Source of the DNA: Stygiolobus caldivivus
Lineage (GTDB): Archaea > Thermoproteota > Thermoprotei_A > Sulfolobales > Sulfolobaceae
NCBI RefSeq assembly: GCF_019704315.1
Contig: NZ_AP024597.1
Span: 806,001-870,000 of the forward strand
Length of the DNA: 64,000 nucleotides
Direction of reading: 5' to 3'
Shown: positions 31,881 to 48,766 of the stretch, piece by piece
Layout: the number at the start of each line of letters is the position of its first letter
Numbering within the stretch: position 1 is the first letter of the stretch
Program-made: the position numbers and the translations under genes
Notes under the pieces: model-generated
What the model saw: only the letters and a program-made list of their open reading frames with translations
Told to the model about the DNA's origin: nothing
The model's database searches: none

Positions 31881-32120
31881 ATGACTGTGAGGTATCGTTG
31901 TTCCTACTCCATAGGAATAGCACCAGACGGAAAGAGGTCAGTCCTCGGTATCACCTTTGCTAAGGGAGAGGACGAGGAGGGCTACTGGGAGCCCTTAGTA
32001 AGCTTGTGGGAATGTAGAAATGGTTATTGTTGGCGGTGTCAGAGCCTTGGACAGCGTTATCACTGTTCTGGGAATGTGGTGAGGAGATGGTACTGTGTAG
32101 TACGCTTAAAGTGTAACTAG
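31881..32120 (+). pseudogene. Transposase remnant (IS256/Mutator-like)
   Basis: The frame encodes SIGIAPDGKRSVLGITFAKG and GYWEPLVSL, matching the catalytic-core start of IS256-type transposases (GxxxDGxxxxLGIxxxxxE…FWxxxLxxL). Near 32005 the homology continues in another frame with VEMVIVGGVRALDSVI, as expected for the following VVSDGxxGL region. The gene is thus frameshifted and truncated. Downstream (to about 32340) lie further short open bits. Family assignment is tentative. Confidence 0.45.
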
Positions 32121-32459
32121 GGTGGAGAGGGAAGAGTCGGATAAGTTGGTGTCTTTAGCTGGGAGGGGTGTAGTTGTCGTGGACGAGTGCGGTGTGTCCG
32201 GCTACATATGAGAACTAGAGGGGTTGTGGGAGTGGCTCAAGGGTATTAACCTCGTGGTGGGGAGGCGTTTCGGTAAAGCTTATTCTCCGCGGGGGTTTTG
32301 CGAACTGCACGGGCTATTGCTGTTTGGAACACCTATTCACTAATTTTTTACAACTTAATAATATTACTGCTATTCTTATTATTATTACTGACGAGTACTT
32401 ATTTGGATTAATTATATACGTAGAATTATACTAATTTTGGAGAGAGTATTTCAATTTGC

Positions 32460-32491
32460 AACGAAGAGCAGCCCTGTAAAACGGGGGCTGT
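32460..32491. other. Hairpin in gene-free DNA between transposase relic and TOPRIM gene
   Basis: CAGCCC...GGGCTG with a loop of about 10 nt, in an otherwise AT-rich stretch (32340-32610) that holds no gene I can support. It may be an insertion-sequence end or a terminator for either flank. Confidence 0.35.
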
Positions 32492-32610: not shown

Positions 32611-32784
32611 CTATATCTCGATGAACTTTCCGTAAATTTTCTTTATTTTATCTAAATCTATAATCTTAAGTAACTCATCTATAAAGTTTTTAGTTAAATA
32701 CAGAGTAGTAGTGTCGGCTGAAAGTAAGAAGACTAATAAGTAAAAGCGTATTTTATCTATATCACATAGTGTTAAATTTATTTT
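32611..32784 (-). other. -1 frame extension of the TOPRIM gene after an A6 run
   Basis: On the minus strand the TOPRIM ORF stops at 32778-32780 directly after six A residues (T6 at 32781-32786 on the plus strand). In the -1 frame the sequence stays open for about 55 codons to a TAG at 32611-32613. It encodes a plausible helical C-terminus (RFYLLVFLLSADTTTLYL, then FIDELLKIIDLDKIKKIYGK). Joining both frames by a -1 slip gives a protein of about 200 residues. Confidence 0.5.
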
Positions 32785-33212
32785 TTAATTGCCTTATACT
32801 CTATTATATTCTCTATAATTTTTTCAGTATTCATATTACTATAATTTAAGAGTTCTTTAAGTAACAAACTCTCTACACATCCCTTATAGTTATCTTTTTC
32901 ATCACCTATTACAATTAATACATAGCAAAGTTCGCCGATACATTTCTTTATATACGGCGGTTCTTTTACTAAGTCACTTATTTCGTCCTTAAGACTATTA
33001 AAAATGTCGTCATATCCTCCTTCATCTCCATCAATTATGAAGAAAATGCTACCTTTTTTCAAAGGGACAGAAACTGATTTAATATTCTTAAACACGTTTA
33101 TAACCTTACCTTTTCCACCGAGTACCTCTATTTCTACCCGGTAAGATATTATTTTCTCTAAAAGTACTTTATCTGTATGTCCTTCTACGAGAATTCTATC
33201 ACAACGTAACAT
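32778..33212 (-). CDS. TOPRIM-domain protein, partner of ABC-type ATPase (split OLD/PARIS-like)
   Basis: A 144-residue protein with a TOPRIM core: catalytic Glu10 in LVEGHTDKVLLEK and the Asp61-x-Asp63 pair in FFIIDGDEGG, the metal-binding set of OLD nucleases, AriB/DUF4435 and DUF3226 proteins. It starts 6 nt after the stop of the ATPase gene, so the two are one operon. The ORF ends at an A6 run, after which a -1 frame continues for about 55 codons (see 32611-32784). It may therefore be a truncated gene or use frameshifting. Together with the ATPase it resembles a two-gene antiviral nuclease module; defence role is inference. Confidence 0.7.
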   Translation of the reverse strand: MLRCDRILVEGHTDKVLLEKIISYRVEIEVLGGKGKVINVFKNIKSVSVPLKKGSIFFIIDGDEGGYDDIFNSLKDEISDLVKEPPYIKKCIGELCYVLIVIGDEKDNYKGCVESLLLKELLNYSNMNTEKIIENIIEYKAIKK

Positions 33213-33218
33213 CTGCGT

Positions 33219-34112
33219 TCACACGTATCCCAACCAGCTCAAAGGCTCCTCAAATTCTGTAATTTCTGAAAGTCTATACGTCTTATACCCTCTTTTAGCT
33301 AAGTAAATTACCGTAGCCTCAGTGTCATTAAATATCTTAGAGGCCATCTTTATTACCTCATTTACATGTGTCGTGAGCATGGTTTGTGTATTACTTTGTT
33401 TAATATCATTGAGGACTTGCATTACTAAGTCCGGGTGTAAAGAGTCCTCGACCTCGTCTATGAGTAGCAAGTTTGAAGCGTCCAGGCCGAACCTGATCAT
33501 CTCTCTTTTAAGAATTCCCCTTCCGATAACGTAAGCCGGTAAAGAATCGTAATATAATTTAAAAACACCGTATTCGTCTTGTAGTATTTCAAACCTAGAT
33601 TTAATCCCCCTATTTTTTCTTCTCGCGACGCTGAAAATCCTCTCAGGATTACCGCTGTTATCGAAGAATGTCGAAATATATAATGGAGAATACCCGTTAT
33701 TCACCCGGTTAATGGCTCTCACTGTAGGCAGTGATATCGGCCCTGACAGCCCTTCCATACTGATTGACACTCGTGTTGCGACTACCTCCACGGTCTTTTC
33801 ATTATTCACGTATACTTCAAGGTTATAAGGACCTTTTTTCTTAAAAGTTACCGTATTATTATCTAGGGTCACGTCGCTGTCAGACAAAGTGGAGAAGGCT
33901 GAAATTATATCTCCTCTACTGGCCATTGCGTAAATAAATGAATTATTGATATCGATGTCGGTCATGTCTGATTGGAAAAGCGTCGATAAAAATAACGCCT
34001 CGAGGAAGGAAGTTTTCCCGGTACCGTTCTCCCCAGCTACTATATTAACCCTTTTTAACTCAGTGTTTACGTTAAGCCCTCTGAAGCCTTGAATTCTTAC
34101 TTTACCTATCAT
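33219..34112 (-). CDS. AAA/ABC-type ATPase of OLD family (AAA_21/AAA_15-like)
   Basis: A 297-residue ATPase. Residues 1-20 form the typical opening strand and FRGL turn (KVRIQGFRGLN). Walker A is GENGTGKTS at 27-35, Walker B LLLIDEVEDSLHP at 215-227 with catalytic Glu220, and the switch His is in TTHVNEV at about 249. No clear LSGGQ signature is seen; IGRGILKREM occupies that place. This is the SMC/Rad50-like head without a long coiled coil, as in OLD nucleases and PARIS AriA. It is the first gene of an operon with a TOPRIM gene. A TATA-like CTAATATACG lies about 30 nt upstream. Confidence 0.8.
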   Translation of the reverse strand: MIGKVRIQGFRGLNVNTELKRVNIVAGENGTGKTSFLEALFLSTLFQSDMTDIDINNSFIYAMASRGDIISAFSTLSDSDVTLDNNTVTFKKKGPYNLEVYVNNEKTVEVVATRVSISMEGLSGPISLPTVRAINRVNNGYSPLYISTFFDNSGNPERIFSVARRKNRGIKSRFEILQDEYGVFKLYYDSLPAYVIGRGILKREMIRFGLDASNLLLIDEVEDSLHPDLVMQVLNDIKQSNTQTMLTTHVNEVIKMASKIFNDTEATVIYLAKRGYKTYRLSEITEFEEPLSWLGYV

Positions 34113-38326: not shown

Positions 38327-38743
38327 TTACGGGTCCCAGTGATCCTTAGCCCTCTGTTTGATCTCTATTACTAAGTTGAACAGCCTCCTATATTCCCTGT
38401 TCCTCAATAAGGCGTCTATCACCTCAAGGTTTACTTCACTGTATTCATGGACTACAATGTTCCTAAACCCGACAACGGCATTTAGGAATTTCTCCTCATC
38501 GCCGCTGATTAACCCCTTCTCTCTTAACCTCTTGACAGAGTCCTTATACTCCTCTGCACTTATCCCCATGTTCGATAGGAGCCTCTGTAGGATGTCGAGG
38601 ACGATCTGTGCCTGAACCTGCAAGCCGTGCAGGACGGCCATCTGGTCTCTCCAGTCGTTTAAATTGTACCCCTCCTCGACTATGTCGTCGAGCTTAGCGG
38701 TAACGTCTTCAAGATTTTTCAACAACCTATCTAAGACCGCCAT
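38327..38743 (-). CDS. hepT: HepT-type HEPN RNase toxin
   Basis: A 138-residue HEPN/DUF86 protein with the complete RX4HXY active-site motif at residues 94-101 (RNIVVHEY), the mark of HepT RNase toxins that cleave RNA, often tRNA 3' ends. It is encoded downstream of and overlapping the MntA gene by 13 nt, the standard order for MntA-HepT systems. MntA neutralises HepT by adding AMP residues to the HXY tyrosine (Tyr101 here). Motif intactness suggests a working toxin. Confidence 0.88.
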   Translation of the reverse strand: MAVLDRLLKNLEDVTAKLDDIVEEGYNLNDWRDQMAVLHGLQVQAQIVLDILQRLLSNMGISAEEYKDSVKRLREKGLISGDEEKFLNAVVGFRNIVVHEYSEVNLEVIDALLRNREYRRLFNLVIEIKQRAKDHWDP

Positions 38744-39135
38744 TTCCTCATCAAAGCCCTCGCAGCGTTTTCGACTACGTCCAATTTTTTAGCGTCGATT
38801 AAGAAGTCCTCACAGATAACCGCCCTCTTGTGGACCTTCCACCAGTCTTCCATATAGAGTATTATGCTGTCACCGAACACCTCGTGGACCAAGTAACAGT
38901 CACTCTCCTCGTTTATAACTGTCAAGTCGACTTTTTCAGTACCTAAATAATCCGTCAGGTCTACCCATAACTCGGTGTAGCCTTCTAAAGTCACCTTCCC
39001 CTTAAACTCTACAGCGATGTCTATGTCATTTCCCTCACCTTTTTTAGCCAGCGAACCGAACAGGACTGCAAAGTACAAGTCGTAGCTCGCCCAACTGAAA
39101 GCCCTTAACTTGTCTAACACGTCGGTAAGTCTCAT
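38731..39135 (-). CDS. mntA: MntA-type nucleotidyltransferase antitoxin
   Basis: A 134-residue minimal nucleotidyltransferase with the active-site signature GSLAKKGEGNDIDIAV at about residues 27-42 (GSxxxGxxxxxDxD; Asp37 and Asp39) and a third acidic strand EKVDLTVI. MntA proteins AMPylate the HepT partner with ATP and block its RNase. First gene of the pair, overlapping hepT. Its start lies 44 nt from the divergent HipA-like gene, so both use the same short promoter region. Confidence 0.88.
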   Translation of the reverse strand: MRLTDVLDKLRAFSWASYDLYFAVLFGSLAKKGEGNDIDIAVEFKGKVTLEGYTELWVDLTDYLGTEKVDLTVINEESDCYLVHEVFGDSIILYMEDWWKVHKRAVICEDFLIDAKKLDVVENAARALMRKWRS

Positions 39136-48352: not shown

Positions 48353-48766
48353 TTAAGGTGAAAAGTCCTTTATGTGGACTACGAAAGGTATCTCCTTTAC
48401 CTTTCTCATCAGCTTTTCATCAGCAGTGTAGACCCTCTCATTGAGGACTTTACCTAATGCTATATATGAAGCGTCATATACCGTTATCCCGTACTTTACC
48501 GACAAAGAGACTATCTCCTCCACCATACCTTCAAACCCGTACATTGTTATTTGGAAGTCCTTGAGGGCTTCACCTACTTCTCCTAACTCCTTTTCTCCGA
48601 GGTTATACGTATACTTTAACCCGTTTAGTACCTCAAAGGGGAGTATGCAAGGTGCTGATAGGTCTTCTAGTCCCATTACGTACTTTTCCTTAAGGAGTAG
48701 GGACTCTTTACTATATTCTTCGTTGGCGAACCACTTTATCACCACTGACGCGTCTACTACTGCCAA
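48353..48766 (-). CDS. vapC: VapC-type PIN-domain RNase toxin
   Basis: A 137-residue PIN-domain nuclease. All acidic active-site residues are present: Asp5 in VVDASVVIKWF, Glu45 in ILPFEVLNGLKY, Asp in VYDASYIALG at about 97, and Asp in YTADEKLM at about 115. These endoribonucleases are toxic unless bound by VapB. Its start overlaps the vapB gene by 10 nt. An intact counterpart to the decayed vapC at 36.8 kb. Confidence 0.88.
   Translation of the reverse strand: MAVVDASVVIKWFANEEYSKESLLLKEKYVMGLEDLSAPCILPFEVLNGLKYTYNLGEKELGEVGEALKDFQITMYGFEGMVEEIVSLSVKYGITVYDASYIALGKVLNERVYTADEKLMRKVKEIPFVVHIKDFSP

Follow-up and report, generated by a model that had tools for sequence, protein, structure and literature searches.

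A number of systems combine an OLD-type ABC ATPase with a TOPRIM nuclease, and OLD-ABC/TOPRIM dyads have already been described as a kind (PMC12839542). In the case of PARIS (AriA/AriB), which constitutes class 4 of the OLD family and has been reported as restricted to bacteria (PMC12796447), the ATPase and the nuclease are encoded by separate, adjacent genes that are carried by mobile elements. In Gabija, the ATPase and TOPRIM are joined in one chain, GajA, which has a UvrD-like helicase as its partner. In Sulfolobales, the OLD family is represented by Cran1 (class 5), a single-chain ATPase/nickase that is conserved in all members of the order, vertically inherited and essential in Saccharolobus islandicus; it is not defensive, being a cell-cycle protein (PMC12796447). 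Here we describe a two-gene locus in the thermoacidophilic archaeon Stygiolobus caldivivus, found in a 64,000-nucleotide stretch of its chromosome (the window), which is best read, on the sequence comparisons presented below, as a compact archaeal form of the ATPase/TOPRIM dyad known from PARIS and not as PARIS itself, Gabija or Cran1. The module is present in one copy in this genome (single contig, 2,958,410 bases, 99.99% complete), and its features are the following:

33219 to 34112, minus strand: OLD-type ABC ATPase gene (297 aa; frame intact)
32778 to 33212, minus strand: putative TOPRIM nuclease ORF in its present form (144 aa; C-terminal quarter lost)
32778 to 32790, minus strand: frameshift site, an A6 run just 5' of a premature TAA (from codon-by-codon comparison)
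32611 to 32777, minus strand: former 3' end of the TOPRIM gene (~55 codons for the C-terminus), now read in the -1 frame (from translation, tblastn and the A1 profile)
31909 to 32460, strand not given: insertion-sequence remnant by the 3' end of the module (second genomic copy 96% identical)

The ORFs and their translations bear out the first-pass annotation in its description of the pair. The ATPase carries a Walker A motif (GENGTGKTS) and a Walker B motif (LLLIDE), with no LSGGQ found in its ORF by motif reading, and is followed after 6 nt (33213-33218) by a TOPRIM frame with Glu10 and Asp61-Gly-Asp63, which stops directly after AAAAAA and continues in the -1 frame, open to a stop at ~32611. 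The predicted catalytic residues all lie within the 144-aa part. Their conservation, which the annotation had singled out for checking, is high: E10, G11, D61 and G62 are invariant in the TOPRIM alignment A1 (seven rows, window numbering; E10 and D61-G62 correspond to E11 and D62-G63 in the protein of plasmid pHVE14), and the second Asp, D63, is found in six of the seven rows, the exception being L037, the intact copy farthest from the others, which has Asn. In the ATPase, the blocks SRG and GRGxLK and the C-terminal tail PLSWLGYV are invariant (alignment A2, 10 homologues). AlphaFold models of the two window proteins had pLDDT values of 36.5 and 41.4 and were unusable.

Profile searches against the PARIS, OLD, Gabija and DUF3226 families, as the first-pass annotation had proposed, gave clear matches for the ATPase, whereas the TOPRIM protein stayed below every cut-off. 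In Pfam, the ATPase scores over the cut-offs of AAA_15 (E = 2e-13) and AAA_21 (8e-12); in PADLOC, its best match is AbiLi (1.9e-19), followed by the mad3, PDC-M38A, AriA (3.1e-14) and GajA models, and its relatives in the PDB include OLD, GajA and AriA. Since the best models all belong to one superfamily, the ATPase alone assigns the module to no particular system. For the TOPRIM protein, no Pfam or PADLOC family rose above its curated cut-off, and DUF3226, OLD-like_TOPRIM and Toprim_4 matched weakly; the pHVE14 homologue aligns with DUF3226 (PF11536) over residues 8-176 (model positions 4-188) with 20.4 bits (E = 4.8e-4), below the gathering cut-off of 27 bits. The ATPase motifs, the adjacent TOPRIM with its Glu and Asp-x-Asp, and the coupling of the two genes in other genomes are those of a split OLD ATPase/TOPRIM dyad in the broad sense, and the annotation's proposal of an OLD/PARIS-like pair is supported.

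The comparison with individual systems narrows this assignment. The module resembles PARIS in having an OLD-type ABC ATPase gene and a TOPRIM gene that are separate and adjacent, in its carriage by a mobile element and in the presence of AriA among its ATPase relatives in both PADLOC and the PDB. It differs in the size of the ATPase (297 aa against 464 aa for AriA in the PDB), as the annotation had remarked, and AbiLi, mad3 and PDC-M38A score higher than AriA. Its TOPRIM protein matches the AriAB fusion model only (E = 0.007, 13 bits), and three intact homologues gave no hit. In PARIS itself, AriB is released upon triggering and tRNA is cleaved. AbiL contributes the best ATPase match but no AbiLii match to the module TOPRIM, and among the PADLOC candidate pairs PDC-M38 and HEC-01, PDC-M38A likewise scores high on the ATPase, whereas neither PDC-M38B nor HEC-01B matches the TOPRIM. 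With Gabija the module shares the OLD-type ATPase and the TOPRIM, yet here these occupy two genes, and a UvrD-like helicase gene is neither adjacent in the window nor shared among the relatives.

A further likeness was found with archaeal pairs of the DUF3226 type in Thermoproteota genomes (L064-L069), in which a TOPRIM gene (~220 aa; DUF3226 over the cut-off in L064-L067, weaker in L068 and L069) lies behind an OLD-type ATPase gene. The ATPase profiles of the two groups align over 269 columns (probability 99.8), although the DUF3226-partner ATPases are longer (340-373 aa) and have a different tail, and the TOPRIM profiles align in the N-terminal core only (probability 62). Given this shared gene order and the strong match of the ATPase profiles, the module is, as judged from these comparisons, a compact branch in Sulfolobaceae of a larger group of split ATPase/TOPRIM pairs in archaea that has been little studied. 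The annotation's term "undescribed defence system" was too strong in this regard, as dyads of this kind are described (PMC12839542) and PADLOC already includes candidate pairs that are similar; what stands is that the literature searched contains no report of the Sulfolobaceae subfamily, nor any mention of DUF3226. In the window genome itself, a 562-aa protein (L101:219-2628; G000:C1:133218-135627) shows an OLD-type ATPase domain behind an N-terminal half of unknown nature, and the 249-aa gene that comes after it may be another TOPRIM-like partner.

The module or its remains were found at 15 loci, 14 of them chromosomal, in Sulfolobaceae, and one on the conjugative plasmid pHVE14. Presence extends to 13 of 197 relatives, all of one family (12 detected by the ATPase and one, G020, by the TOPRIM), and the congener G001 is without the module. 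Among 398 genomes of the phylum, the TOPRIM profile returned nothing convincing outside Sulfolobaceae, the ATPase profile returned nothing there at E < 1e-15, and no TOPRIM was found in a scan of IMG/VR. The ATPase matches in IMG/VR (L057-L063) proved on inspection to be unrelated AAA ATPases without a TOPRIM-like partner; weak TOPRIM matches outside the family (L011, L053, L054) were judged to be due to chance, with no ATPase pair seen for L053.

Both genes are intact at five of the 15 loci (pHVE14, G028, G018, G022 and the second copy of G030), and at six more both are recognisable with one or both damaged. An open ATPase with a broken or absent TOPRIM is found in the window, G013, G015, G007 (Sulfolobales archaeon HS-7) and G023; the reverse is seen in the first copy of G030; both genes are broken or missing in G004, G011 and G024; and G020 retains a broken TOPRIM alone. 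In the HS-7 locus (L041; L013:4998-5891) the ATPase is intact and the TOPRIM gene is entirely gone. Altogether, the TOPRIM is damaged or lost in nine of the ten non-intact copies, and the ATPase is open in five.

An all-against-all comparison of flanking ORFs showed that the 15 loci have these two genes in common and otherwise unrelated flanks, with no shared neighbour besides scattered insertion sequences and other small fragments: the mobile unit is exactly the two genes. The module DNA of G028 is 96.6% identical to that of G018, from a different genus, against 71.9% in the rpoB region; the corresponding values with respect to G018 are 92.6% and 72.6% for the first copy of G030 (G030a), and 89.3% and 71.7% for G013. 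Because the module DNA is far more alike across genera than the rpoB regions, the module moves horizontally. Where intact, both genes are under purifying selection (dN/dS ~0.1-0.46); dS is saturated in most pairs containing the window copy.

This distribution sets the module apart from Cran1, with which it shares the OLD ATPase and TOPRIM chemistry and the occurrence in Sulfolobales. The 492-aa OLD-like protein of the window genome, taken to be the Cran1 orthologue, is only distantly related to the module ATPase (hhalign 97.3, E = 2.5e-11). A chromosomal housekeeping or cell-cycle function could be imagined by reference to Cran1 itself, an OLD-family ATPase/nickase on which S. islandicus depends (PMC12796447), but a split module that has crossed genera, is confined to so few relatives and is often broken makes such a role extremely improbable. 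The pair is accessory, and not the housekeeping pair whose presence in all strains would, by the annotation's own terms, have spoken against it.

The frameshift in the window TOPRIM had been considered either as a site of slippage or as a fresh break, and the homologues favour the latter. By tblastn, the -1 extension aligns with residues 146-200 of a full-length homologue at 50-56% identity and the part upstream of the shift at 46-49%, and the A1 profile matches the extension on its own as well (E = 7.7e-12); since the C-terminus of the homologue aligns there as well as the upstream part does, the extension is genuine former coding sequence. Intact homologues are encoded in one frame and measure 176-203 aa, the closer ones 200-203 aa. 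The 200-residue length given in the annotation is thus the normal one of the homologues and not an extension of a 144-aa protein. The conservation of the A6, on which the idea of two products depended, does not hold: the run is absent at the homologous codons in all seven other copies compared codon by codon (pHVE14, G028, G030a, G013, G018, G022 and G030b), which read straight through there. Homologues with the two frames fused and no A6 are one of the outcomes that the annotation had named as refuting it, the present copy then being a pseudogene. As the homologues are single-framed, match the -1 extension with their C-terminus and have no A6, the window copy most likely carries a fresh frameshift lesion of its own, rather than programmed slippage.

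A working gene of two lengths, in which translational or transcriptional slippage at the A6 would yield TOPRIM proteins of 144 and 200 aa, would have in its favour that AAA AAA TAA lets the P-site tRNA-Lys re-pair one base back, which is chemically possible, and that the -1 extension is undamaged and encodes a conserved protein sequence. We regard it as very unlikely: the phase does not fit a classic X XXY YYZ heptamer, the frameshifts in other copies are different and lie elsewhere, and there is no sign that slippage at AAA/TAA is selected. A programmed frameshift is recognised by a slippery site that is conserved, along with both frames, in homologues, and the seven copies, lacking the A6, read one frame through the site.

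The alternative that the homopolymer was missequenced or misassembled and the gene is intact is distinctly unlikely as well, but less so. The site is an A6 run, the extension is free of further damage, and the lesions of G013 (in the TOPRIM), G030a and G011 (both in the ATPase) are likewise located within or next to A/T runs; on the other side, the assembly consists of one 2.96-Mb contig and is 99.99% complete, the pair shows no further stop elsewhere, and decay is common in the module family, as seen in the multi-stop copy G015 and the outright losses in G007 and G023. Single-base deletions in or by A/T runs break otherwise open copies at L033, L034, L043 and window 32778-32790, and lesions of this kind may reflect mutation hot spots, phase variation or assembly error. 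Judged from the reading frames, the system is most likely inactive in this genome, its ATPase being intact but left without a partner.

As to the function of the module, we consider it reasonably probable that it serves in defence or competition as a compact OLD-family system, split into ATPase and TOPRIM and horizontally mobile, of which the window copy is lesioned and most likely off. By domain logic and by analogy with the described dyads (PMC12839542), the ATPase would act as sensor or regulator and the TOPRIM as effector. The ABC ATPase, which probably forms a dimer or a larger oligomer, would hold a small metal-dependent TOPRIM nuclease in check, possibly docked through the conserved C-terminal tail (PLSWLGYV); an invading virus or plasmid would trigger an ATP-dependent rearrangement, upon which the TOPRIM would cleave nucleic acid (tRNA or DNA) and stop the invader or the cell. 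In the window genome, a recent single frameshift removes the C-terminal quarter of the TOPRIM and has most likely switched the system off. The preferential damage to the TOPRIM, with the ATPase left open in half of the damaged copies, fits a self-toxic effector whose retention carries a cost.

The restriction of the shared sequence to the two genes, their carriage by pHVE14, the transfer across genera, the low dN/dS and the ATPase matches, mostly OLD or defence-type ATPases, argue for this reading, as do the neighbours of two copies among the subset of loci checked: that of G028 (L032) lies ~5 kb from Cas10 and Csm3-like genes of a type III CRISPR system, and the first copy of G030 (L033) lies by DrmC-like, DpdJ/BrxH-like and methyltransferase genes (DISARM-like). 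Against it stand the TOPRIM scores, below every curated cut-off, the non-defensive nature of Cran1 (PMC12796447), another OLD protein of Sulfolobales, and the location of several lesions, that of the window included, in A/T runs. Carriage by pHVE14, a conjugative plasmid also equipped with a Cas4-like gene, could also point to a plasmid maintenance or entry-exclusion module of the toxin-antitoxin type, with the TOPRIM as toxin and the ATPase as antitoxin, decaying once stranded in chromosomes. The speed at which chromosomal copies have decayed (10 of 14), the tight coupling of only two genes and the naming of AriA as an antitoxin in PDB entries 8v45 and 8v46 agree with this, but four chromosomal copies are intact, dN/dS is low and two chromosomal copies lie by defence genes; we hold it to be rather unlikely, and its mechanism overlaps that of defence without being sharply distinct.

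The surroundings of the window copy hold further elements. The insertion-sequence remnant at 31909-32460 has its second copy at G000:C1:1731083-1731633, neither copy with a full transposase ORF, and shows a weak likeness to Mutator-type transposases (Pfam Transposase_mut, E = 0.003, 31881-32120). A toxin-antitoxin pair of a HepT-like (HEPN) protein and an MNT nucleotidyltransferase lies a few kb from the module (38327-39135), and a short ORF at 48353-48766 resembles, by inspection only, a PIN-domain (VapC-like) toxin.

A relative of the ATPase was also found in a virus. Protein gp49 of SBFV3, a deltalipothrixvirus and thus a filamentous virus of Sulfolobales (L031:1923-2609, MK064564.1; 228 aa, annotated as "ABC transporter") aligns over its full length with the module ATPase profile (hhalign 99.2, E = 2.9e-19), compared with an alignment around Walker A only for the DUF3226-partner ATPases (72.6, E = 3e-5). 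It retains Walker A and the C-terminal tail (FEKPLHWIGYI), in which 10-15 of the last 34 residues are identical to module ATPases against about one quarter elsewhere, but lacks the SRG and GRGxLK blocks and the TTH histidine, and the Asp-Glu of Walker B is Asp-Asp. No TOPRIM partner was found beside gp49; gp48, considered as a hidden one, showed no similarity (hhalign probability 0.1). We tentatively suggest, as a possibility rather against the odds, that gp49 is a hydrolysis-dead decoy that would capture the host TOPRIM or poison the ATPase oligomer, that is, counter-defence by ATPase mimicry.

The archaeal OLD protein studied so far, Cran1, serves the cell cycle, and split class 4 has been reported from bacteria only. 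Found in Sulfolobaceae as a split version that is mobile and carried by a plasmid, the module offers a direct way to ask whether OLD-type nucleases take part in archaeal immunity, a question for which intact copies are available in relatives and on pHVE14; the copy in the window is itself most likely a disabled remnant. The viral relative of the ATPase would make counter-defence testable.
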